Shown: positions 1-11,732 of the stretch, in pieces
Layout: the number at the start of each line of letters is the position of its first letter
Numbering within the stretch: the stretch's first letter is position 1
Assembly: GCF_000715015.1 (NCBI RefSeq)
Contig: NZ_JMIW01000006.1
Span: 219,001 to 283,000 of the forward strand
Direction: 5' to 3'
From: Erythrobacter longus
GTDB lineage: Bacteria; Pseudomonadota; Alphaproteobacteria; Sphingomonadales; Sphingomonadaceae
Length of the DNA stretch: 64,000 bases
The notes under the pieces: model-generated
What the model was told of the DNA's origin: nothing
Seen by the model: only the letters and a program-made list of their open reading frames with translations
Database searches by the model: none
Made by a program: the position numbers and the translations under genes

Positions 1-60
1 CAGGCCGATCGCTGCCAGCACGAGACGTGAAAATATGGAGCGCCGGGCTTCCAAAGTCAT
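1..60 (-). CDS. Sensor histidine kinase, N-terminal fragment (cut by window edge)
   Basis: Only the first 20 codons are inside the window. They start at an ATG (60-58) that overlaps the TGA of the response regulator as ATGA. The translated start reads MTLEARRSIFSRLVLAAIGL, basic residues followed by a hydrophobic stretch, as in the first membrane segment of a sensor kinase. Translational coupling directly behind an OmpR-type regulator makes a membrane histidine kinase the natural reading. The kinase domains lie outside the window, so this is inference from context. Confidence 0.6.
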   Translation of the reverse strand, partial: MTLEARRSIFSRLVLAAIGL

Positions 61-749
61 TTGCCTTCAAGAATGCGGTAGCCAGAGCCAAAGATTGTTT
101 CGAGCGCAGGCGTGCCAAAACCTTCTTCAAGCTTGCGCCGTAACCGTCCAATGTTGACATCAACCACATTGGTTTGCGGATCAAAGTCGATATTCCAGAC
201 ATCGCGCAAAAGCATCTCGCGCGTGACCATTTCGCCAGCGTTTTCCATAAAATAGCGGAATAGTTCGAATTCCTTGGGACTAAGCGAAAGGTGTTGGTTG
301 TCACGAAACGCAGTGCGCGCTTTCAAATGGCATTCAAATGAGCCGTAAATGATCACAGCCTGGTGCTCTTTGCCAGCAGAGCGCCGGTGGAGAGCCCGCA
401 ACCGGGCCATCAATTCATCGGGTTCGTAAGGCTTTGCCATGTAGTCATCTGCGCCTGCATCAAGCCCTTCGGCCCGGTCACTGCTTCGGCCCAAAGCGCT
501 CATTATCAAGATCGGTGTGCCAATTCCGCTTTCGCGAAGGCGCCGGGTGATCGTCAGGCCGTCAATGTCGCCAAGCATCCGGTCAAGGATGATAACATCA
601 AACGCCTCCATGCCTGCCCTTAAAAGAGCAGCGCTGCCATTCTCTTCCCAGATCAGCACATCGCCGCTTGCCTGAGCCAATTCGCTTACCGCAGCGGCGG
701 TGCGTTGATCATCCTCAACATAGAGAATTCTGAGCGGTGTATTTGTCAT
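57..749 (-). CDS. OmpR/PhoB-type response regulator
   Basis: This 230-residue protein has an N-terminal receiver domain and a C-terminal winged-helix DNA-binding domain. Visible receiver residues are the acidic pair in YVEDD (D13, D14), the phospho-acceptor D56 in ILDRMLG, and K106 in MAKPYEP. The C-terminal half carries the LSPKEFELFRYFMENAG and VVDVNIGRLRRKL segments typical of the OmpR wing and recognition helix. An ATG 20 codons upstream (809) is possible, but the conserved domain starts right after the ATG at 749, which follows a GGGGGA stretch. It is coupled by ATGA to a downstream kinase gene. It lies next to the SH3 and Slam-type genes, which share an upstream direct-repeat element, so it may regulate them; that link is inference. 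Confidence 0.95.
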   Translation of the reverse strand: MTNTPLRILYVEDDQRTAAAVSELAQASGDVLIWEENGSAALLRAGMEAFDVIILDRMLGDIDGLTITRRLRESGIGTPILIMSALGRSSDRAEGLDAGADDYMAKPYEPDELMARLRALHRRSAGKEHQAVIIYGSFECHLKARTAFRDNQHLSLSPKEFELFRYFMENAGEMVTREMLLRDVWNIDFDPQTNVVDVNIGRLRRKLEEGFGTPALETIFGSGYRILEGK

Positions 750-845
750 TCCCCCATCCCGGCCACATTGAACGACCGCATGACTTTGTGCTGCGTCATG
801 AGTTGCCATTGCTTAGCCTTCCCTGCAAGCGAACGATTAAGACGA

Positions 846-917: not shown

Positions 918-1790
918 TCAGTTAAGCGATTCGACCGATACCCATCCTTTGGTGCCAAAGTTGTCTTCAACTTCAACAAACAAACCTTCACGTCGACCGG
1001 TGGTATTGAGCGTTGTACCAGGCTCTAACCCGCGAACAGCTTCGCCATCGGCCATGGGCATCGCCATCATTGAAGTAGCAACAGTGACAGTCGTGATATT
1101 GGCGTTTTTTGATGCAACGCTGACCGCTGGCACCGAAGCGATCACAGCATCTTGAGCAACAACTTCATTGAAGGCGATGACAAAGGCTTCGACCAATTGC
1201 TTGCCGGTGCGGCTATCGCGATAGCCGACTTGATCGGCGCGTGCGATCCATGGCGATGATCCGCGAAAATCTAGCGAACTGCGCTTGACCGTAGCAGAGC
1301 CGGTAACAATGGTCTGGCCGGTCGCAGGCGAAAGCAGTTTGATGCCGGCGGCCACGCGCTTTTTCTTGCCGCCAAACATATTGAACATGCCCACAACCGC
1401 GCCTGCACCAGGCACTCGGCCCAGGACCTGCCCAGCTGCGCCTGAACGCACTAAGCCTTCAACCGCTGCCGACTTGGCGATTTCAATCGATTGATCGACC
1501 TCTTCGCTAGACCCGGCGATGACATTCATCAGAAAGTCGGCAGGTTGGCCGCTGGCCGCGGAATGGGGCGTGAAACAACCAGAGTCGATTGCGAAAGAAT
1601 TGATAAGCTCGCGCGGTGAACCAAGGTCGAACTCCGCCCAGCCTTGCGTGTCGCCATCAACAACCGCAATAGTGCCAAGGCTCTCCTCGCAAGTCACAAG
1701 TTCAAGATCATCATCTGCCATTGCCGATGTTGGCGCACAAAGTGCCGCGATAATGGCGATGCTGGCCATACCTGATTTAAAGTGTTTCAT
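918..1790 (-). CDS. Secreted SH3-domain protein of unknown function
   Basis: The start is the ATG at 1790, preceded by GAGGGGAATGAAGC. It gives 290 residues with a signal peptide (MKHFKSGMASIAII...TSAMA, then DDD). The middle (about 120-230) contains a glycine-rich stretch with FGGKKKR and a segment TGQTIVTGSATVKRSS followed by residues predicted to form strands, vaguely like periplasmic assembly factors; I do not recognise the family. The last about 45 residues (VRGLEPGTTLNTTG...GWVSVESLN) match a bacterial SH3-type fold, often a peptidoglycan or protein contact. It has its own upstream region with the 17-nt element seen upstream of the Slam-type operon, so it is probably co-regulated with that system. 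Confidence 0.8.
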   Translation of the reverse strand: MKHFKSGMASIAIIAALCAPTSAMADDDLELVTCEESLGTIAVVDGDTQGWAEFDLGSPRELINSFAIDSGCFTPHSAASGQPADFLMNVIAGSSEEVDQSIEIAKSAAVEGLVRSGAAGQVLGRVPGAGAVVGMFNMFGGKKKRVAAGIKLLSPATGQTIVTGSATVKRSSLDFRGSSPWIARADQVGYRDSRTGKQLVEAFVIAFNEVVAQDAVIASVPAVSVASKNANITTVTVATSMMAMPMADGEAVRGLEPGTTLNTTGRREGLFVEVEDNFGTKGWVSVESLN

Positions 1791-1872
1791 TGCTTCATTC
1801 CCCTCGCATTGTTCTGCTTGCAGTTGTGTCGCAAGGGCTTTGAGGGGACCACACACAGCTTCTGTCACATGG

Positions 1873-1910: not shown

Positions 1911-4900
1911 TCAGCGCATCTGGCGTTGTTCACCCCATGTAATCGTTCCGCCCATGATGGCCTCAATGTCAGCAATCGCCGCGGCCCTTTCGGCAGGTCC
2001 AATCGCGCCTTTGAGACCAGGTGCAATCGGCTGCGAAACCGAAACAGAACCATCAGCCGGATTATCACCGCCAGGCAGAGGCCCTACACCCCAACGGCCC
2101 CAATCGGTGGGAACCGCGGGCGTTTGCATCGGCGCGGCAGCGAGCGCATTTTGAACCGGATCAACAATCGACGCGGCTGCACCTTCTTGCCCGAATATCG
2201 CGAGGCCCGACGCAGCGACAACGCGGCCAAGGCCGCTGTCGGTCACATTCATCGCAAGCGCTGCATAGGCAGCGTCATCGCCATACAGCGTACCGCTGAC
2301 ATTGACGAAGCAACTTATCGAGCAGGTGTCTCCAGTTGAGGTGACGGTACCAACCGAGTTGGTGTAAGAACCGCCAAATGTAAAGCCTGCGCTGCCGACG
2401 ACGAGGTTGATATCGCTGCTTGCCGGATTGGCTGCACCGCCGTTGGTCGACACAGACCAGCTGCGCCCGCCAACGGCCATGGTAAGGTCGTAGCCGACAA
2501 GGTTGCTTGCTCCAAAAGCGATGGCAAGATCGCCCGTGAGCGTGCCGGGCGCAGAGCCCGCGTTATCGGTTGCTGAAGTTCCACCGATCAGCTCGTAGGC
2601 GATCGTGCCGCCGGGCAGGCTTGTAGTGACTTCGCCGGTCATCACATGATAGCCGCCATTGGCGCCCACGGGGAAATCGAGATTGCCAAGAAGGCCAGCG
2701 GTTTGAACCGTGCCATTGGTCCATCTCGCCCACGCCACTTCACCCAAATCGGTGGCTTCAACGATGGTGGTGTCGTTGCTGGAGACGGTGCCCACGAGCG
2801 ATGACATACCCGTGATCTGGCCATTGACGAAGTCGGCCGACCCACCAAAACCGGTGTTAAGCGAACCGTCGAGATAGGCGTAGTACACCTGACCATCGCG
2901 TGTGCCGGTAAAGCCGGTGCCGGTGCTGCCGCCGCCTGCACCACCATCATAAACACCATTCCCGAAAATCGCGGCACCATCGATACGCCTGGTGTTGATT
3001 GTGGCATCGACCGTGGTGGTCGCCGAATAGGTCAGGCCAAGCTGGTTGATATCGGCACCAGCGAAATAGCCTGCGAACGAAATCGTGCAATTGGCATCGC
3101 AAGCGTTGTCGCTGGTGGTGATACCGCTACCGAGCACCGAGAAATTCACATTGCGCCCTTGTGTCACGCGGAACTCTGATGTGCTTTGCGAGGCATTGGC
3201 GATGCCGCCTTCGGTGGAGAAGCCATAGACATAATCGCCGGTGGCCGTTGGCATGGTGATCTGGCCTTCGATGGCTACACGGTTGGTGGAGCCGAAAAGC
3301 ACGGCCATATCCGCTTCGAACTTGCCTGGGGCTAGCGAGCCATCGGCGATAGTGGGTGCAGTGGCTGCTATCAGTTGATAATCGATGCGACCCATCGTTG
3401 GGAGCACGAAGGCACCCATCGAAGTGGGAGCCGCGATTAGGTAATGCAGTCCTTGTGTACCTGATAGCGTGGTGTCCTCGGAGGGATTGGTACTGCTGAC
3501 ATACAAGCCATCTCTCCAACGCCCGATGGCGAAGCGGTCATTGGTCGAGATATCGGTGACCATGGCCGTACCGATGCTGCGCGGGCGGAAGCTGTCATCG
3601 ATTGCCGTGACACCCCGAGCTTCATTGAAATCGACGGTAGTGGCGCTGAAACCGCTCAAGCGCGTCGATGGTCCTGCAAGATTAAAGTTCACCCCGCTGG
3701 TCGCCGTAAAATCGCTCTGAGTGGCAAGGATCAACGGCGTACCTGCATCGCCGCCATTGCCGCCGCCCGTTCCGACGCCACCGGGCAGGGTGCCAAGGCT
3801 GGCCAAGGCGGTGCCGTTTTGGCCATAAACCGCCAGACCGCTGACATTGGAGAACCTGGCGTCAGTGGTACCGTTGGCGACGGCCGAGATTTGATAGGCA
3901 AAGCCCGCATATGGCGCGCCATCGCCAAACAGCGAACCGAACACGCGGGTTGAACAGGACACTGCGCAAGAGCCTTCGATCAAGGCGGTAGTGGTCAATT
4001 CTGTGCCAGAGGTGAAACTGAAGCGCCCATCTGCGCCGACCAACAGCCCTTGCGCATCGGGATCATCCGCGCCGCCAGCAGTGCGTGTATTCCACCCGCG
4101 CCCACCGAAATAGACATCGAAATCGAGGCCCACTTCGGGGATGGTTTTGAAAGCAATCGCCATCCGCCCGGAGAATGATCCGGTGGTGCCTTGTTCGACA
4201 AACACGTCAGTAGGCAATGTGCCACCAACCAGTGCGTATTCGACGGTTCCGGTAGTAGGTATACTGGTAGCGAAATTGCCAACCAGCAAATGCGTGTTCT
4301 GATTTGTGGCTTGCCCGTTCGCAACCGCGTTTTCATAGCGGGTGAAAGCCACATCATTGCCAAAGCGGCCATGCTCACGCAGCGTGCCTGCCGTTGTAGC
4401 ATGATCGGTGACTACGCCGCTGGACGATGTTGTGGTCGTGATCTGGCCATCGGTTGTCACAGTGGCAGCCCTGGCTGGACCGAACGAGCTAACCCCTGGT
4501 TGCAATATGGCCCTATAATTATTCTCGAAATTTGTTCCTTGACCACCTGAAAGACCGGCAAAATCGTTCGGATTGCCTCCGCCAAGAAGGAAAGCGTAAT
4601 AGTCGACAAAGAACGAATTAAGGTTGCCAAACCCAGCAAGTCCGCCCTGCAGGCCAGCGAGCGCGGCAAGGTACTGCTCAATCGTCACTGCATCCAGAAC
4701 GGTATATTCGCTTGGCAAATTGCCCGCTTCGAGGAAGGCGAAATAGGCGTTTAGCTGCGCCACATAGTCGAGATAGATCGGTAGCGCCGCAAAGCCGTCA
4801 ACGGCCCCTCCGTTATCAAGAAAGGCGAAATAGGCTAACAGCAATGCGCCATTATCGCCAAGCAAGGTATCGACCTGACCTGATTGCTGAACCGCGTTGA

Positions 4901-6782
4901 AAAACTGCTGTAACGTGCCAAGATCGCCCTCAGTAAAGTCTGACGGCAGGCCATTGGCAGCCAGGAATACGGCATAGGCATTGAGAGCGGCAGCAAAGGC
5001 CGGGAAATCCGGCGGCACGGGAAGCTGCGCAAAGTTATCCGGGTTTCCACCACCAGAAACAAAGGCAAAATACGCCTGATAGAAATCAGCAAGATCGCCA
5101 AGGAAGAACTGCGTTGCACCTGCCGTCTCAAGCGCGGCGAGATATTGCGCGATCACCTCTTGTGAAAGAGGGGTATAGGCCGATGGAATACCGCCATTCT
5201 CAAGGAATGCGAAGTAAGCGGCAAGATCTGTCTGGTATCCTGCAAAGATGTTTGCAGGCAGTCCGACAAATGCATCAACATCGCCGCCCGCCTGCAAGAA
5301 TGCGAGGTAATCGGCGAAAAATTGGGCTTGGCCTTCTTCAAGGTTCGCAAGAAGCCCGGTGCGTGCAAGTGTCTCAAGATAGCTGCGCAAGGTCGCTTGA
5401 TTGAGCACGGTGTAGCTGCTTGGCCGCTCACCGCTGGCAAGGAATGCAAAATAGTCGGCAAGCGCGGTCTGGAACTGGCCTGCAAAACCGATCCCGCCAT
5501 TGTTCAGGAATGCTGTGATCAAGGCTTGATCGGCAGCGCTAAGCTGGAGCAGTAATCCGCTTTCCTGCAAGAATGCAATCGACTGCACGAGCGCTTCCTG
5601 ACTTGCGTCTGCAAACTCACTAGGAATGCCGCCAGACCGCAAGAATGCAAAATAGGCAGTCGTGAGGTCGGCAAAGGAGGAGGCAAACAGGTCGCGGTTT
5701 TGCCCGCTGGCGATGAACGCCAAATAGGCATCCGCAAGAACGCGATCCTGTGCGCCAAGCGCGGAAATTGCGCCGGTCCGGCTGATGAAAGCGAGGTAGG
5801 CGTCAATATCGCCTGCACTTGTATTGCCACTGGCAAAGCCGCTGGGCACGCCGCCTGCCCGGATCAATTCGAGGTAACTCAGTGTGAAACTGCTATACGT
5901 GGTCAGGAACTCGGCACCCGATGCTCCGCTTGCGAGAAAGGCAAGATAGGTTCTGATGATGTCGGCTTGTGCTGCATTAAAAGGCGATCCGCCATAAGCG
6001 CGCTCAAGGTCAGCCGCTGCCGCCACCAGCAGCGCCAGATCACCGCTGGGAAACCGATCAAGCGATGGGTTTGCAACGGCGGCCTCAACCCTGCGCCCTG
6101 CATCAATAATGTCAGAGGACGCACCCGCGGCCGCAAGTCCATCGCCAAGGGTCACCGGAATGCCGTTCAATGCCGCATTAACAGGCCCCGAATCGCCGCC
6201 AATGGCAACAATTTGTGCCGGGTCCAAGCCATCAGAAGACACATTGCCGGGTTGCTCAACCGCTCCATTGGCTATGGTGCGCGTGGGGCTCTCGCCAGAC
6301 TGCGCGCTCCACATTTGGCCTTCGCGATAGGGGCGTTGGCGTTTGCCCTCGGTGCCAACTCGAACAACGCCGGTGAGTGTGTGGCCAGAGGCTGTGCCGT
6401 CATTGGCTACCGAAAAACTGGATGAAGACGACGTGCCAACAATGCGCGCCACGACGCCGCCTGGCATTCGCACTTCCACCGGTGAATGCGCAGCGCCTGT
6501 GACTGTGATGGAGCCTTCAAAAAGGTCAATCGAGCCGTCTTCATTGATAGTGTATTGCGCCCCTTGTGTAATCGAGGCCATACCACCTGATGCCAGCCTG
6601 ATCTGTGTAATGCCTTGGGCTTGCGTGGTGCGTTTGCCTGGCACAATCTGCGCGTCAGACGAGGTGAAGATCACGTCGTTGGCAGCAACTGCTCCGGGTA
6701 CAAACCCTGTCAAAGCAAGGCTTGAACAACCAACCAAAAGGAAGCGCAGTTTGCGCGATGAAGTCATCGGAAACGAGGTCAT
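1911..6782 (-). CDS. Giant secreted FecR-domain / helical-repeat / TbpB-like barrel protein, probable Slam (type XI) cargo
   Basis: This is a 1623-residue exported protein. Residues 1-34 are a signal peptide ending AVAA. Residues about 40-160 form a FecR-like domain (IRLASGG, DLFEGSI, VRMPGGVVARIVGT). Residues about 274-745 hold about 19 copies of an AYFAFLxxGG-type helical motif. Residues about 806-990, 1070-1280 and 1345-1535 are three related beta modules, each with an RW or RY start, a YxLIGGT-like strand, a CxxxC pair, and an FxGxLFGDxAxYAG-like strand resembling the barrel domain of transferrin-binding-protein-B-type surface proteins. The ATG at 6782 has a good AGGAG site. The gene follows the Slam-type barrel protein by 21 nt, the order expected for transporter and cargo. 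A short LVGC sequence at 16-19 looks like a lipobox, but the hydrophobic core before it is too short. Biological role unknown. Confidence 0.85.
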   Translation of the reverse strand: MTSFPMTSSRKLRFLLVGCSSLALTGFVPGAVAANDVIFTSSDAQIVPGKRTTQAQGITQIRLASGGMASITQGAQYTINEDGSIDLFEGSITVTGAAHSPVEVRMPGGVVARIVGTSSSSSFSVANDGTASGHTLTGVVRVGTEGKRQRPYREGQMWSAQSGESPTRTIANGAVEQPGNVSSDGLDPAQIVAIGGDSGPVNAALNGIPVTLGDGLAAAGASSDIIDAGRRVEAAVANPSLDRFPSGDLALLVAAAADLERAYGGSPFNAAQADIIRTYLAFLASGASGAEFLTTYSSFTLSYLELIRAGGVPSGFASGNTSAGDIDAYLAFISRTGAISALGAQDRVLADAYLAFIASGQNRDLFASSFADLTTAYFAFLRSGGIPSEFADASQEALVQSIAFLQESGLLLQLSAADQALITAFLNNGGIGFAGQFQTALADYFAFLASGERPSSYTVLNQATLRSYLETLARTGLLANLEEGQAQFFADYLAFLQAGGDVDAFVGLPANIFAGYQTDLAAYFAFLENGGIPSAYTPLSQEVIAQYLAALETAGATQFFLGDLADFYQAYFAFVSGGGNPDNFAQLPVPPDFPAFAAALNAYAVFLAANGLPSDFTEGDLGTLQQFFNAVQQSGQVDTLLGDNGALLLAYFAFLDNGGAVDGFAALPIYLDYVAQLNAYFAFLEAGNLPSEYTVLDAVTIEQYLAALAGLQGGLAGFGNLNSFFVDYYAFLLGGGNPNDFAGLSGGQGTNFENNYRAILQPGVSSFGPARAATVTTDGQITTTTSSSGVVTDHATTAGTLREHGRFGNDVAFTRYENAVANGQATNQNTHLLVGNFATSIPTTGTVEYALVGGTLPTDVFVEQGTTGSFSGRMAIAFKTIPEVGLDFDVYFGGRGWNTRTAGGADDPDAQGLLVGADGRFSFTSGTELTTTALIEGSCAVSCSTRVFGSLFGDGAPYAGFAYQISAVANGTTDARFSNVSGLAVYGQNGTALASLGTLPGGVGTGGGNGGDAGTPLILATQSDFTATSGVNFNLAGPSTRLSGFSATTVDFNEARGVTAIDDSFRPRSIGTAMVTDISTNDRFAIGRWRDGLYVSSTNPSEDTTLSGTQGLHYLIAAPTSMGAFVLPTMGRIDYQLIAATAPTIADGSLAPGKFEADMAVLFGSTNRVAIEGQITMPTATGDYVYGFSTEGGIANASQSTSEFRVTQGRNVNFSVLGSGITTSDNACDANCTISFAGYFAGADINQLGLTYSATTTVDATINTRRIDGAAIFGNGVYDGGAGGGSTGTGFTGTRDGQVYYAYLDGSLNTGFGGSADFVNGQITGMSSLVGTVSSNDTTIVEATDLGEVAWARWTNGTVQTAGLLGNLDFPVGANGGYHVMTGEVTTSLPGGTIAYELIGGTSATDNAGSAPGTLTGDLAIAFGASNLVGYDLTMAVGGRSWSVSTNGGAANPASSDINLVVGSAGFTFGGSYTNSVGTVTSTGDTCSISCFVNVSGTLYGDDAAYAALAMNVTDSGLGRVVAASGLAIFGQEGAAASIVDPVQNALAAAPMQTPAVPTDWGRWGVGPLPGGDNPADGSVSVSQPIAPGLKGAIGPAERAAAIADIEAIMGGTITWGEQRQMR
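4548..5963 (-). repeat. Coding repeat region: about 19 AYFAFLxxGG helical motifs
   Basis: Residues about 274-745 of the giant protein repeat a unit of roughly 20-27 residues: an aromatic helix (AYFAFL or QYLAAL), a small turn (SGG, NGG, TG), then a polar helix. Two or three variants alternate to give a longer period of about 75 residues (YFAFLxxGGxPSxY, then SYLxxLxxTGxL, then DYxAFLxxGGxxxxF). The DNA copies are clearly diverged, so this is an old protein repeat and not recent tandem duplication. Confidence 0.85.
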
Positions 6783-6803
6783 GTCATATTCTCCTGATGG
6801 CGA

Positions 6804-8123
6804 TCAAAATTCGAACCGGGCACCGACCGACACGGTCCAACGTTCGAAGTCGAACAGAGCGATATTGCTCCAGTTGCGGGTGTAAGTGGCTGTGGGCTGG
6901 AGGAAGAGGCGGTCGAGCACGGCAACCTTGAGTCCCGCTCGAAGATCAAGCCTTTCATCCTCGCGCTCGGCCAAGAACAGGGGGTCGGGCGCGTCATGGC
7001 GTCTCAGGTCAAAAGCTGCTCCACCCACGACTGCGACACGTTTGGAAACGGGCAATTCTGCCCCGACATTGGCGGTTACAAAGCCAAAACTCTGCGCATC
7101 GCCTGCTGTGCGCCGGGTTTCTTCTTTGCCGCCCGTAAGGTTGATCGCGAACTGTTTGCCGACAAACCCAACGCCCGCTGCAAACCGGTCGGCATCGCGC
7201 AAGGGATCATTGTCAAAGTCGAGCCTGTTCCATTGTGCGGAAATGGTAAGCGCACGCCCACTTGCAATTGGCTTTGTGTATTGCGCAATCGCCCCGTAAC
7301 TTGTCCGAAAGCCGCTATCATCAAGCCAGAATTTCTGGACCTGGCCAGACAGCGACAGGACATCGCGATTGGCGAACGTGCGCGCATAACCAGCCGTTCC
7401 GGTGAGCGCGGCCTGATCGAAAGCACTGCTGTCGAAATTGTCGCGCCAGCTGCCGAGAGCGGAAGCGAAAAGACGATCTTGCCGACCGATCGCGGTCACT
7501 CCTGACACACCGGCGGTAACTTCGTAAAACTCGTCTTCCTGTGCGATCGCATTGGCACCAAGCTGTCCTGCGCCAAGGAAGCTGAACAGCGGGATCACAA
7601 TGGTATCGAGCTCGGTGGCGGTGTTGATATTGCTATCAAAGCCCAACCTCGTATCGACGAAACCGCTCACATCCGATCCGCCGCCTGCAATCTGGCGATC
7701 AAATTGACGGACAAATCCGGTGAAGCGTTGACGCACCGGATCGGGCAGCGTTGGGTCTTCCACGACGGTCGCAAATTGCTCTCGCGCTGTATCGATATCG
7801 CCTGCAAGGGCATAGGCACGCGCAAGCTCCGCTCTTGCCGCTGCATTGCCGGGTTTAACCGCAAGCACGCGCTGAAACGCGATGATCGCATCGCCAAAAC
7901 GTCCTGCATCCAGCGCGGCAATACCAAGCTGATAATCGAACGAAGGATCGCCCGCCCGCTCGCTTACTTGAGCATTGAGCGCATCAAATGCGCCTTGCGC
8001 AGCATTCTCTTCTGATTGCGTGGCTTCTTCATTTTGTGCGTGCGCTGTTATTGGTATCAAAATTCCGAATGAAGCGGCGCCCAGCATCGCTGCTTTGATC
8101 ACCAATCTACAAAGTCTGTTCAT
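6804..8123 (-). CDS. Slam-type (DUF560) outer-membrane secretion protein with TPR domain
   Basis: This 439-residue protein has a signal peptide (cleavage near AHAQNEE), a TPR region (about 45-150: FDYQLGIAALDAGRFGDAIIAFQRVLAVKPGN and the next unit), and then a beta-barrel from about 165 that ends in GARFEF with C-terminal phenylalanine. A TPR domain plus a 14-strand-type barrel ending in a YTRNWSNIALFDFERWT-like segment is the architecture of surface lipoprotein assembly modifiers, the outer-membrane component of type XI secretion. These proteins move TbpB-like barrel cargo to the cell surface. The next gene, 21 nt downstream, encodes a protein with three TbpB-like modules. An alternative is a generic TPR-plus-barrel outer-membrane protein without secretion activity. 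Confidence 0.8.
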   Translation of the reverse strand: MNRLCRLVIKAAMLGAASFGILIPITAHAQNEEATQSEENAAQGAFDALNAQVSERAGDPSFDYQLGIAALDAGRFGDAIIAFQRVLAVKPGNAAARAELARAYALAGDIDTAREQFATVVEDPTLPDPVRQRFTGFVRQFDRQIAGGGSDVSGFVDTRLGFDSNINTATELDTIVIPLFSFLGAGQLGANAIAQEDEFYEVTAGVSGVTAIGRQDRLFASALGSWRDNFDSSAFDQAALTGTAGYARTFANRDVLSLSGQVQKFWLDDSGFRTSYGAIAQYTKPIASGRALTISAQWNRLDFDNDPLRDADRFAAGVGFVGKQFAINLTGGKEETRRTAGDAQSFGFVTANVGAELPVSKRVAVVGGAAFDLRRHDAPDPLFLAEREDERLDLRAGLKVAVLDRLFLQPTATYTRNWSNIALFDFERWTVSVGARFEF

Positions 8124-8229
8124 CGTGTGCTTGCCCCCGGTTTGCCATCAATTGCCTCCGCAAAGGAGGCTCTGACAGAGCAATGGGGCAGTCACGCGGC
8201 TACGTCCGCTGACAAGCTTGGTTACGCTT

Positions 8230-8246
8230 ATGACAATCGCTGTTAG
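8230..8246. promoter_or_regulatory. Shared 17-nt upstream element, copy 2
   Basis: ATGACAATCGCTGTTAG lies 107-123 nt upstream of the Slam-type gene start (8123) and matches 1873-1889 at 16 of 17 positions. On the minus strand, TGTCAT, TAACCA and TGTCAG follow at 10-11 bp intervals. It probably is the promoter-proximal operator of the transporter-cargo operon. A 6-bp hairpin (8154-8170) lies between it and the gene. Confidence 0.5.
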
Positions 8247-8285
8247 GTGGCTGGAAAGTGTAAGGACCCCGGCGAAAATGCCGTC

Positions 8286-9551
8286 CTATTCGGTGCGCAA
8301 TGCCTCAATCGGTGACAGGCGCGAGGCTCGGATCGCGGGGTAACTCCCGAACACCAAACCAAGCACCGCCGAAAAGGCCAAAGAGCCAAGAGCAACACCG
8401 ATGCCAATGGGTACAGGAAAGTCGGCATAGGCGGTCAAGGCCGAACCAGCGAGCCACGCCAAGACAAGGCCGACTGCACCACCAAGCACACACAAAACCG
8501 CTGCTTCGACAAGGAATTGGTTGCGAATATCGCTGCCTTTGGCGCCCAATGCCATGCGCAGACCGATTTCACGAGTGCGCTCTGTAACGCTGACGAGCAT
8601 GATGTTCATAATGCCAATTCCGCCCACAAGTAGCGAGATTGAGGCAATCGCAACCAGAACCGCTTGCAGGATGCCTGTGATAAACTGGCTTTCCTCCATA
8701 AACTCTTGCGTGGTGCGCACCCGGAACGGGTTAATCTCGCCATCCCGGACCCGGTAGCGGTCCTTCATCAGATTAGTGATATCGATCTTGCCTTGGACAA
8801 GAGAGGCCCCCTCTTCAAACCCGGCAAAGGCAAGTTGAAGGTCATCTGGCCCAGGCAGGCTGTCTCCAACAAAGCGTTGACGCATGGTGGATATAGGAAG
8901 CACAGCTGTGTCGTCATTATCGGTGCCGAAAGTTGATCCTTTTTCTTCGAGAACACCGATGACCTGAAATGGCACGCCGTCGACGCGCACGGTCTCTCCA
9001 ACAGGGTCAAATTCGCCAAACAGAGTTTCGGCCGTGGTTTGCCCCAGAACCAGAACGCGGGCAGCAGAGCGAACATCGGCCTCACTTATATAGCGCCCGC
9101 GATCAGCGGGATGATTGGTGATCTGGCCATATCCCGGGGTTGTCCCGACCGCGCTGGTCGAAGTGTTGGCCCCTGCCGTCACCATATCAAGGGTTGAGCG
9201 CAATTGCGGCGCGGTGGCGATAACGCCGGGGACTTCGCGCTCAATCGCGCGCAGATCGCGGCTTGTCAGGCGGCCCCGATCGTACGATCGCCGCCCACCT
9301 TCATTGTCGGGTTCTGGCACGATAATCGCCATGTTCGAACCAAAGCTGTTGATCGACTGCATGACGGATTCTTGCGCGCCATTGCCAACGGCCACTGCCA
9401 GCGTCACCGCAAAAACGCCGATCAAAACGCCCAGCATTGTGAGAATAGAGCGCATCAAATTGGTGCGCAGCGCGGTCAAAGCAATGGCGATATTCACGCC
9501 CCAGCTGGAGAGGAATTTCTGGCCCTTTCGCTTTGCAGGGATGGTCGCCAT
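8286..9551 (-). CDS. MacB-type ABC transporter permease
   Basis: This 421-residue inner-membrane protein has one membrane segment at about 22-42, a large periplasmic domain (about 45-285), and three C-terminal segments of the FtsX type. The conserved stretch VGGIGIMNIMLVSVTERTREIG at the start of the C-terminal membrane part is diagnostic of MacB/FtsX permeases. Its ATG overlaps the stop of the ATPase gene by one base (TAATG). Together with the ATPase and the membrane-fusion protein it forms a tripartite efflux pump; here the permease and ATPase are separate chains, unlike E. coli MacB. Substrate unknown: lipids, peptides or small toxins are all possible. Confidence 0.93.
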   Translation of the reverse strand: MATIPAKRKGQKFLSSWGVNIAIALTALRTNLMRSILTMLGVLIGVFAVTLAVAVGNGAQESVMQSINSFGSNMAIIVPEPDNEGGRRSYDRGRLTSRDLRAIEREVPGVIATAPQLRSTLDMVTAGANTSTSAVGTTPGYGQITNHPADRGRYISEADVRSAARVLVLGQTTAETLFGEFDPVGETVRVDGVPFQVIGVLEEKGSTFGTDNDDTAVLPISTMRQRFVGDSLPGPDDLQLAFAGFEEGASLVQGKIDITNLMKDRYRVRDGEINPFRVRTTQEFMEESQFITGILQAVLVAIASISLLVGGIGIMNIMLVSVTERTREIGLRMALGAKGSDIRNQFLVEAAVLCVLGGAVGLVLAWLAGSALTAYADFPVPIGIGVALGSLAFSAVLGLVFGSYPAIRASRLSPIEALRTE

Positions 9552-10312
9552 TACGCCTCCTCCACCGCTAATGCGCCAGTAGCCACCGCGCGATTTTGGA
9601 CCAGCCTGTCTTCAATCACCTTGCCATCGCGAAATTCAATCCGGCGCTTTGCATGGTCGGCAATCTCGTCCTCGTGGGTGACCACAATCACCGTAATACC
9701 AGCGGCGTTGAGCCCTTCAAAAATCGCCATGATCTCTTCGCTGGTGCGGGTATCAAGAGCGCCAGTGGGTTCATCGGCAAGCAGCATAAGCGGCTCTGTC
9801 ACAAGAGCCCTTGCGATAGCCACGCGTTGTTGCTGCCCGCCTGAAAGCTTGGCAGGCGTGTTCAGCAATCGGTCGCCTAGCCCCATCTCGATAAGCTTTG
9901 CAGTCGCACGCTCACGCCGCTTTGCTTTATCCATCCCGGCATAGATTAACGGCACCGCCACATTATCAATCGAAGACGTCCGGGCAAGCAGGTTAAACTG
10001 CTGAAACACAAAGCCGATTTTCTCATTTCGAAGAACCGCCAGATCGTCGCTCGACATATCGGCGGTTGGCGTTCCGTCGATCAACACCTGTCCCGATGAA
10101 GGCACATCAAGGCACCCGATCATGTTCATGAATGTCGATTTGCCCGAACCGCTCTTTCCCATGATTGCGACATATTCGCCGTGCTCAATCGTGAGAGAGA
10201 CGCCGTTCACTGCATGGATCACTTCCCCGCCAAGATTGTATGACTTGACCAGTTCGCGTGTCTCAATCAGCGGATGGCCTTGATCGGCGCTTTGGGTGGC
10301 TGGGATTGCCAT
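9551..10312 (-). CDS. ABC transporter ATP-binding protein, MacB/LolD type
   Basis: This 253-residue ATPase has Walker A GKSGSGKS, signature LSGGQQQR and Walker B LMLLADEP followed by TGALD, the form seen in MacB/LolD-type ATPases. The start used is the ATG at 10312, just before the conserved IETRELVKSYNLG segment and 10 nt after the fusion-protein stop, with AGGCAGG as ribosome site. Earlier starts would overlap the fusion protein. It powers the permease at 8286-9551. Confidence 0.94.
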   Translation of the reverse strand: MAIPATQSADQGHPLIETRELVKSYNLGGEVIHAVNGVSLTIEHGEYVAIMGKSGSGKSTFMNMIGCLDVPSSGQVLIDGTPTADMSSDDLAVLRNEKIGFVFQQFNLLARTSSIDNVAVPLIYAGMDKAKRRERATAKLIEMGLGDRLLNTPAKLSGGQQQRVAIARALVTEPLMLLADEPTGALDTRTSEEIMAIFEGLNAAGITVIVVTHEDEIADHAKRRIEFRDGKVIEDRLVQNRAVATGALAVEEA

Positions 10313-10322
10313 AGGCCTGCCT

Positions 10323-11561
10323 CTAAGACCCCTCGCCAGAGCCATCACCGCGAAGGCTTTTGGACCGGACAAGGACCGCTTGCCCAGCTTCAAGACCGTC
10401 AGTGATTTCGACGTGTTCTTCGCCCTCAAGTCCAATTTTTACCGGCACGCGCCGGGGCAGATAAGGCTCCTCGCCCGGTACCCAGACATAGGCCTGCTTT
10501 GCCTCACCGGATTGCTCGCCGCCCTCTGGCTGTTCGCCCCGATCCTCCTCGCGCGGCAGAAAACGGGTCGAGGCGACCGGCACTCTCAAGACGTTCTTCT
10601 TCACGCCAGTGATGATCTCAACATTTGCGGTCATCCCGGTGAGCAAGCGCCCATCGGAATTGTCGACATCAAGGATCACCAAATAGCTCACCGCATTGCC
10701 ATTTTGCGAGGCGGATTGGCGGATCTGCTGAACGAGAGCTTCAAATTCAGCTTCTGGATAAGAGTCCACGGTAAAGCGCACAGATTGACCTTTGCGCACT
10801 TGGCCAATGTCGGCTTCGTCCACCGATGCCTCGACTTGCATGCGGCTTGTGTCGGCTGCGATTGTAAAAAGGTTGGGCGTTTGGAAATTCGCCGCCACCG
10901 TGGTTCCTGGCTCAACCAGCTTATCGATGACAACACCGCTTGTCGGCGCAATAATACGCGTCCGCGAAAGGTCGAGCTGAGCAGATTCCAGCTCTGCCAT
11001 GCTCTGAGCGATTTGAGCCCGCGCGCTTTGTGCCTGCGCCTGCGCAGAGCTTAAATTTGCTTTTGCCGCGACCAATGCGTTCTCTGCCTGGTCCAGCCCT
11101 GCGGTTGAAACAAAACCCTTTTCCGCCAGCTCTTTACGACGGGCAAATTCGCGGGTTTGCACTTGAACATCGGTGAGCGAGCGAGTGATGGAGGCCTCGG
11201 CCTGGGCAAGGCTTGCGCGGGCAAGATCAACCTGCGCGCGCGCCTGCGTCACCCTTGCGCGCGGACGGGTTGCGTCAATTTCGGCCAGCAATTGGCCAGC
11301 GGATACGGGCGAGTTAAAATCGACGTAGACGGCTGTGATCTGGCCAGAAACTTCCGCGCCGACATTGATCGTATTGAGCGCCCTTAATGTCCCGCTTGCG
11401 GAAACAACGCGGGCGACTTCGCCCTTTGACGCATCTTCTGCGACATATTCATAATCGCGGCCACCCGAGGACAGAACGGCCCACAAGATCAGAATGACGA
11501 CCAGCGCGATAACTCCCGTTATAATTGGGTGCCGTTTGATCCAATCCAAAACTCGCTTCAC
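10323..11561 (-). CDS. MacA/HlyD-type membrane-fusion protein
   Basis: This 412-residue periplasmic adaptor is the first gene of the efflux operon. The start chosen is a GTG at 11561 (MKRVLDWIKRHPIITG), placing the single membrane anchor near residues 12-30; a TTG at 11615 is also open. After the anchor come a lipoyl half-domain (VSGQITAVYVDFNSPV), a long alanine- and glutamine-rich helical hairpin (about 85-195), the second lipoyl half (RIIAPTSGVVIDKLVEPG), a barrel domain and a C-terminal domain that ends early, rich in glycine and serine. It links the permease to an outer-membrane channel; no TolC gene is adjacent. Confidence 0.92.
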   Translation of the reverse strand: MKRVLDWIKRHPIITGVIALVVILILWAVLSSGGRDYEYVAEDASKGEVARVVSASGTLRALNTINVGAEVSGQITAVYVDFNSPVSAGQLLAEIDATRPRARVTQARAQVDLARASLAQAEASITRSLTDVQVQTREFARRKELAEKGFVSTAGLDQAENALVAAKANLSSAQAQAQSARAQIAQSMAELESAQLDLSRTRIIAPTSGVVIDKLVEPGTTVAANFQTPNLFTIAADTSRMQVEASVDEADIGQVRKGQSVRFTVDSYPEAEFEALVQQIRQSASQNGNAVSYLVILDVDNSDGRLLTGMTANVEIITGVKKNVLRVPVASTRFLPREEDRGEQPEGGEQSGEAKQAYVWVPGEEPYLPRRVPVKIGLEGEEHVEITDGLEAGQAVLVRSKSLRGDGSGEGS

Positions 11562-11732
11562 AACACTTACGCCCCATTTTTTAAAGCATGAGCTATACAG
11601 CCAATCGCGCGCCAATCGAGTGCAAATGACGTTGTTTGGCAGATCAGCTTGTGCGGCGAACGATAGTTTTGCGCAATCTTACTCAAGGTCGGCTTCAGCA
11701 CATCTTGTCAAAGCAGCAGTACCACATGGGGT

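Follow-up and report, generated by a model that had tools for sequence, protein, structure and literature searches.

What does an outer-membrane barrel preceded by tetratricopeptide repeats (TPRs) do beside a gene for a giant exported protein? The question is raised by a 64,000-nucleotide stretch of the Erythrobacter longus genome (contig NZ_JMIW01000006.1, positions 219,001 to 283,000; the window, by which we mean the whole stretch), in which a pore gene of 439 aa (6804..8123) is followed after 21 nt by the gene for an exported cargo of 1623 aa (1911..6782); all features of the window given below lie on the minus strand. An earlier interpretation made from the letters alone (the sequence-only reading) had described a TPR-plus-barrel protein ending in GARFEF and, 21 nt further on, a 1623-residue exported protein, and had taken the two for a type XI-like secretion operon. 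Both open reading frames (ORFs) are as it described them. We computed gene pairing, homology, predicted fold, module number, mosaic structure and conservation of the cluster, and on these results the locus probably encodes type XI (Slam-type) secretion and represents a divergent branch of it; to this reading, with the whole scheme proposed below, we assign a probability of about 0.84.

Conservation and spread of the gene pair

A close homolog of the pore was found in 18 of 298 genomes of the bacterial family, the window's own included; 17 of the 18 were near full length, at 49-100% identity, and the one in G131 was partial. The other 103 of the 121 matching genomes gave weaker matches, many of them to the TPRs only. 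The named collection contributed nine loci, with the nearest named pores from Qipengyuania and Erythrobacter (L032 is the same record as G016). We compared 26 distinct loci, namely the window, L031-L039 and L041-L056 (L040, the same record as L032, was left out). Pairs could be read in 24 of them, L038, whose contig ends just past the pore, and L056, whose pore is truncated, being set aside. A homologous cargo ORF lay directly after the pore gene in 24/24 distinct readable loci. The cargo ORFs ranged from 786 to 2139 aa and the pore-cargo spacing from -1 to 47 nt, with the exception of L054, where the start is uncertain. A module of about 189 residues occurred one to four times in each cargo, and by profile at least one copy was present in 25/25 cargo rows (24 distinct). 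Three module fragments, two in L042 and one in L045, were dropped before counting. The truncated pore of L056 is cut to residues 13-190 and adjoins a CHAT gene; this locus (G131:C1:1796946-1799368) is apparently a decayed copy.

Outside the family, the module search matched 3 of 385 class genomes and 6 of 398 phylum genomes; both figures count the window's own genome, and the phylum matches also contain two family members already known. Only some first-look candidates were scored per genome (5 in the family search, 8 in the class and phylum searches), so that absences are not firm. In three remote Pseudomonadota loci (L121, L122 and L130) the pore gene adjoins a cargo that consists of a signal, a FecR domain, a linker and one module. 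Module matches were also obtained in G898 and G939. The module search listed hits for L131 and L132 too, although the ORFs chosen there contained no module. The FecR-linker-one-module form may be the older one, to which a stalk and further lobes were added in Sphingomonadales. In the remote genome of L130, a GT41-type (O-GlcNAc-transferase-like) gene begins at the end of the cargo gene (7683-9779, plus strand), and glycosylation of that cargo by its product is possible.

Relationship of the pore to the Slam family

In the window pore, a signal peptide recognised by eye is followed by TPRs at about residues 43-124 (TPR_16, E 1.6e-9 in a Pfam search of the pore alone) and by a C-terminal outer-membrane barrel. 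Searches of Pfam, NCBIfam and the PDB sequences with this single protein returned the TPRs, weak barrel matches and little else. A profile of the pore family (A2, 25 sequences) matched 8 of the 9 fetched loci whose proteins pass PF04575 (SlipAM), the Pfam model for Slam, and the homology spanned both the TPRs and the barrel. It ran nearly end to end in L078 (E 5.6e-27), L080 (E 2.1e-27), L082 and L083, started at position 70 in L079 and was piecewise in L081, L085 and L086. Closer relatives were the remote pores of L121 and L130, matched by A2 at E 5e-75 and 5.8e-85, and these two pass PF04575 with 37.6 and 58.7 bits against a cut-off of 22; the L122 pore was matched at E 1.2e-57. Because the family profile matches proteins that pass PF04575, the window pore is, as judged by profile homology, a divergent branch of the Slam family. 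The bacterial family also contains Slam homologs at 25-29% identity, for which TbpB_B_D proteins lay nearby in 5 of the 7 neighbours scanned. Judged by eye, six of the listed neighbours of these homologs start like lipoproteins; some ORFs beside the distant Slam homologs L060, L065 and L070 looked out of frame, and only that of L060 was scanned among these.

The best AlphaFold2 (AF2) model of the pore, with a mean pLDDT of 77, has TPR helices followed by 14 strands, if the broken strand at 381-394 is counted once. Slam barrels have 14 strands, whereas the pores of two-partner secretion (ShlB/FhaC) combine POTRA domains with 16 strands; POTRA and ShlB domains were not found in the pore by the Pfam search. 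The rows that Foldseek returned for this model included OmpG among the best (ranks 7, 10, 19 and 37) as well as BcsC and PelBC (ranks 4, 9 and 30).

The latter rows bring in another reading, that the barrel exports a polysaccharide, as the TPR-barrel proteins BcsC, PgaA and PelB do, and that the giant protein is a matrix protein exported independently. BcsC also gave a weak sequence match through the TPRs, and Pfam matches identify sugar genes elsewhere in the window, which we take to resemble genes of Kdo or CMP-sugar synthesis. The pore model nevertheless has 14 strands, its family matches SlipAM members over both TPRs and barrel, and the protein that accompanies it throughout has the Slam-cargo fold, as described in the next section; we regard polysaccharide export as highly improbable.

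The pore gene is immediately preceded, on its own strand, by genes for a MacB-like permease, an ABC ATPase and an HlyD-type adaptor (8286-11615). None of the stretches fetched for the other loci showed a MacB homolog at E<=1e-15.

Fold of the cargo modules

The cargo of the window contains three modules, whose barrel parts span residues 790-986 (3825..4415; profile domain E 1.4e-45), 1071-1273 (2964..3572; E 1.4e-58) and 1337-1530 (2193..2774; E 2.8e-52). The profile was seeded with the window's own module 2 and then fed by the other modules; of 69 profile rows over all loci, 63 modules were kept once L040 and the fragments had been dropped. The three repeats are real, and their bounds are near the 806-990, 1070-1280 and 1345-1535 proposed earlier. 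Module 3 was modelled together with its handle (2184-2948). The alignment used for this added 24 modules taken from the window and from L031-L039, and the AF2 model had a pLDDT of 83 and a pTM of 0.83. In a Foldseek search of the PDB, seven rows reached E<=0.001, all of them TbpB or NHBA, and the same two proteins occupied ranks 1-11; past rank 11 unrelated barrels predominated, with E values from 6e-3 upwards, and fHbp appeared at rank 35. VIA-align, which was used as a second look at the Foldseek list, placed all 50 rows listed in the Slam-cargo fold class, with Z from 9.8 to 12.6: NHBA (Z 12.6), TbpB, LbpB, fHbp (some of them chimeras), HpuA and hemophilin (Z 9.8), the row 3hoe bearing only the title 'surface lipoprotein'. 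The TbpB rows covered both handle and barrel; type XI cargos generally have a handle and barrel of this kind at their C-terminus or close to it. An unrelated fold would have spoken against the TbpB-like barrels suggested by the sequence-only reading, but the 50 VIA-align rows listed and Foldseek ranks 1-11 all fell in the Slam-cargo class.

When a profile of 63 modules was compared with the PDB sequences, hemophilin (8glo) came first, weakly (E 0.019; best stretch 0.21), in two collinear pieces over its C-terminal half. TbpB, LbpB, fHbp and the hemophilin Hpl are among the verified cargos of the type XI secretion system (T11SS) (PMC12282271), and HpuA is a Slam2 substrate (PMC9090332). NHBA is counted in the Slam-cargo class by its fold alone. 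Almost all modules keep a C-x(3-4)-C pair (C209 and C213 in the first sequence of alignment A4), which perhaps closes a short disulfide loop ahead of the final strands.

Several results weigh against the assignment to type XI secretion. PF04575 gave no match to the window pore at E up to 1, no match in the window's own genome at E up to 0.01 and none to the remote L122 pore at E up to 0.1, so that the Slam-type pore of the sequence-only reading stands on profile matches to proteins that pass PF04575 and fails on its own match. The A2 profile covered most of the length in just 5 of the 9 PF04575 loci and missed L084 altogether. A Slam structure was absent from the 50 Foldseek rows listed for the pore model, and this model was the single good one of five (mean pLDDT 77, 61, 59, 57 and 54), computed from an input of 10 closely related sequences; since one model of five was good, the strand count is moderate evidence. 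On the side of the cargo, PF01298 matched 0/63 modules at E up to 1, and the whole-model TM-scores of the module were low (0.29-0.41 in Foldseek ranks 1-11), which suggests that the angle between handle and barrel in the model differs or is uncertain. Finally, lipoproteins moved between species are reported to keep their surface topology (PMC5500766), and arrival at the surface therefore need not prove use of the pore.

Anatomy of the cargo

Searches of Pfam and NCBIfam with the cargo alone gave nothing convincing, and its parts were delimited by alignment and profiles. A Sec signal peptide at residues 1-33 (6684..6782), with a signal peptidase I-like site after AVA, was identified by eye and from the alignment of cargo N-termini (A5). 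By inspection of the sequence and of this alignment, and not by a signal-peptide program, the signal is of the soluble type: no lipobox is conserved, most relatives lack the Cys that the window cargo has at residue 19, and the AxA site lies behind it. A lipoprotein is unlikely on this inspection, in agreement with the earlier remark that the cargo is not evidently one.

The signal is followed by a FecR-like head at about residues 36-165 (6288..6677; alignment A5). PF04773 matched 3 of 23 cargo N-termini, with a best E of 0.002, and the window head itself is below the reach of Pfam. Among the remote cargos, the heads of L122 and L130 pass PF04773 (E 3.2e-10 and 4e-14). The A5 head profile matched the L121 cargo over most of the head (E 2.5e-15) and the L130 cargo over part of it (E 8.8e-7), partly overlapping its FecR match; with the L122 head, 39 columns were aligned at an hhalign probability of 52. 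At the level of sequence comparison, the remote cargos make FecR the probable kind of head. The FecR domain named by the sequence-only reading gains support from these relatives, although Pfam does not detect it in the window itself.

Between head and modules, at about residues 270-745 (4548..5975), lies a predicted helical-repeat stalk with 15 YxAFL-type motifs at residues 279-728, spaced by exactly 24 residues in 7 of 14 intervals. Shuffling of this stretch gave a mean of 1.2 motifs and a maximum of 6 in 2000 shuffles (the motif was picked after the sequence had been seen), which agrees with the helical repeats claimed earlier. Nineteen of the 24 cargos have 6-32 such motifs, and L043, L052, L053, L054 and L055 have 0-1; a Pro/Thr-rich linker takes the place of the helical stalk, most clearly in L054 and L043. 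The C-terminal tail, residues 1531-1623 (1914..2192), ends in a motif of the [LM]GGxI[TS][WF] type. A tail of this one kind was found in 12 of the 24 distinct cargos; it is in another reading frame in L039 and degenerate in L044, L052 and L055. In L039, a metagenome bin, the tail lies outside the frame of the long ORF from 14555 on, through a frameshift or a sequencing error.

Mosaic structure of the lobes

Twenty cross-locus pairs of modules were at least 60% identical, and just two of them stood well above the identity of the respective pores, the next exceeding it by 1 point. Module 1 of the window is 91% identical to module 1 of L041, whose pore shares 66-68%; the corresponding DNA block (3776..4596) has 83.3% identity over 822 alignment columns, against 68.7% for the pore gene, and takes in the whole module 1 lobe. 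Module 3 is 95% identical to module 3 of L031, with pores at 79-82%; here the block (2176..2938) has 86.0% DNA identity over 766 alignment columns, other long blocks about 73%, and the module 1-2 region of the window has about 20-40% identity to the L031 cargo. Each cassette block ends inside a Gly-rich linker or close to one. Such blocks are what would remain if whole lobes had been replaced through exchange between species; they were seen for two of the three modules of the window. For module 3, an alternative is that one lineage received new modules 1-2 in place of its own and kept module 3; whole lobes would have been replaced either way.

Two further candidate swaps were rejected. Between L046 and L047 (pores 98%, modules 72%) one 92% DNA match runs through, which indicates faster divergence instead, and the identity of module 2 in the window to that of L033 (75%, with the pore at 78%) fits ordinary descent.

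The turnover of lobes bears on the side of the membrane on which the cargo works. It could stay in the periplasm at the outer membrane, where FecR head and lobes would serve the neighbouring two-component system as a scaffold or in signalling. Such a role is favoured by what is best known of FecR domains, their presence in periplasmic signalling proteins, and by the adjoining response regulator and histidine kinase genes. Turnover of whole lobes, however, suits an exposed surface better than a periplasmic scaffold, and the characterised cargos of the same fold in PMC12282271 are surface or secreted proteins. We consider a periplasmic cargo very unlikely.

Proposed mechanism and comparison with known systems

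From the computed results we infer secretion and its direction, anchoring, ligand, regulation and the role of a protease. The cargo would be made with a Sec signal and held unfolded in the periplasm, where the TPR and 14-strand pore would recognise it via its TbpB/hemophilin-type barrels and pass it through. Unfolded TbpB crosses Slam1-containing proteoliposomes with the help of the chaperone Skp (PMC9090332), and by analogy with Slam1-TbpB the cargo would cross unfolded and fold outside. There its one to four handle-barrel lobes would stand in a row, carried by a stalk that is helical or rich in Pro and Thr; the FecR-like head, as the N-terminal end, would remain at the outer membrane or close to it, presumably replacing a lipid anchor. 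The lobes would be the working, variable part, serving adhesion or ligand binding, and would pass between species as whole cassettes.

With the Slam1-TbpB type of system (PF04575), the locus shares a TPR and 14-strand pore beside a cargo of the TbpB/NHBA/fHbp/hemophilin handle-barrel fold. It differs in that the window pore is outside Pfam detection, the cargo is non-lipidated by inspection, FecR-headed and built of 1-4 lobes with a long stalk, and the locus is linked to a two-component system and a CHAT protease. Hemophilin (HphA) is a soluble T11SS cargo and provided both a fold match and the first, though weak, PDB sequence match. It is not lipidated; unlike the cargo of the window it has one lobe, no FecR head and no repeats. 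The 'Sphingomonas surface proteins' (PMC12282271) come from a related bacterial group and also have several handle-barrel copies per cargo, with their TbpBBD copies behind Pro-Thr repeats that recall the Pro/Thr linker of L043 and L054; in contrast, they were found via known-cargo domains, and 18 are lipoproteins and 12 soluble (PMC12282271). Published work describes a Sphingomonadaceae-rich subcluster 1C and multi-barrel, helical-repeat and soluble cargos (PMC12282271, PMC8406197, PMC9090332), and the seven type XI pores verified by experiment all fall in a single animal-associated cluster (PMC12282271). The novelty that the sequence-only reading had seen in the cargo architecture narrows accordingly: several barrels per cargo, helical repeats and the lack of a lipid anchor have all been published before (PMC12282271), whereas the combination of FecR with the modules is new within the literature searched, FecR having 0 occurrences in the main text of two T11SS surveys, PMC12282271 among them.

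The branch occurs in environmental Sphingomonadales and a few remote Pseudomonadota; the Pfam model misses it in the lineage of the window, and its cargos are giant and apparently not lipidated. If the scheme is true, it would test the cargo size limit of the Slam pore, whether the export signal is each barrel or the last one, and the role of a FecR head on an exported protein, and the mosaic lobes would provide natural chimeras for mapping pore specificity.

Neighbouring genes

Beyond the cargo gene lie genes for an exported protein of 316 aa with a C-terminal SH3-like domain (918..1868; SH3_3 E 1.8e-5, 25.2 bits against a cut-off of 27) and an OmpR-type response regulator (57..809; Response_reg 8.1e-22, Trans_reg_C 5.6e-24), and the start of a histidine kinase gene (1..60), which has a 4-nt overlap with the regulator's stop and continues beyond the window (L087 18230-19561). 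Outside the window, on the same minus strand, a small exported protein of 226 aa (L087 17546-18226) follows the histidine kinase, and an ORF of 949 aa with a signal peptide by eye encodes an exported TPR-CHAT protease (L087 14818-17667), about 1.8-4.7 kb left of the window. The same seven genes occur in the same order in L031, where the CHAT gene is cut by the end of the fetched stretch. The two-gene operon of the sequence-only reading holds as a pair, but the unit is larger by the SH3 protein, the two-component system, the small exported protein and the protease.

Across the 26 loci, CHAT was found in 14; another 6 had the small protein but no CHAT, a few of these being cut off too early; the SH3 protein was in the fetched stretch of 11. 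Gene order and orientation vary among the loci while the neighbours persist. The CHAT His and Cys, which we take to be the active site, are kept in 12 of 13 aligned CHAT proteins, the thirteenth (L044) stopping short of the region. The OmpR-type two-component system probably sets expression of the cluster, and the exported TPR-CHAT protease, presumably a relative of caspases and separase, probably trims, releases or quality-controls the exoprotein. The CHAT link would supply a candidate substrate for an exported CHAT protease. The term 'CHAT domain' was not met in the literature searched, which left out most subscription papers.

The adjacency of CHAT, regulator and SH3 genes might instead be a regional habit of these genomes, with no functional tie to the secreted protein. 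CHAT and SH3 genes occur elsewhere in these genomes (7 CHAT matches were counted in that of the window), 5 of 18 genomes have no CHAT gene close to the pair and the SH3 protein is also found away from the pair, points that tell against our scheme as well. The genomes are related, moreover, and the loci not independent. Nevertheless, 13 of 18 genomes have a CHAT gene no more than 12 kb from the pore, where uniform placement would give 0.35, an estimate from 0-11 CHAT genes per genome that serves as a guide value alone among related genomes; homologs of the CHAT, small and SH3 proteins were found at 0/24 other Slam loci, whose flanks were shorter. With the neighbours staying as orientation and order change, we hold mere regional habit to be somewhat unlikely.

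The same genome contains a second CHAT gene clustered with a large ORF and a dedicated outer-membrane pore (L105 3-10449, minus strand). As at the locus of the window, a TPR-CHAT protein accompanies the two; the pore, however, is of the ShlB/FhaC type with POTRA, not Slam, and the large ORF has no Pfam match. This arrangement suggests a wider link between CHAT and exoproteins. A general role of exported TPR-CHAT proteases as dedicated processing or release enzymes for giant exoproteins, with Slam- or ShlB/FhaC-type pores, is a doubtful extension that we offer tentatively. On that reading the cluster would be a regulated display-and-release system made up of a two-component sensor, a Slam pore, a modular FecR-headed exoprotein with exchangeable lobes and a protease that cuts it.

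A link between the SH3 protein and the cargo tail was considered and dropped. Among the 24 distinct cargos, the fetched stretches contained both in 11 cases, the tail alone in 1 and neither in 12, and strong SH3 homologs were found in the tail-less genomes G165, G174, G220, G289, G099 and G207, in the last two about 4.5 and 6 kb from the pore, just beyond the fetched stretch. The loci with SH3 do not form one group on the pore tree. In G165, the genome of L041, the SH3 homolog is the direct neighbour of a CHAT gene (G165:C12:107438-110092), on a contig other than the one that carries the pair. At L107 (7404-12496, minus strand), a further CHAT gene is accompanied by homologs of both the response regulator and the small exported protein, in a fetched stretch from which the pair is absent.

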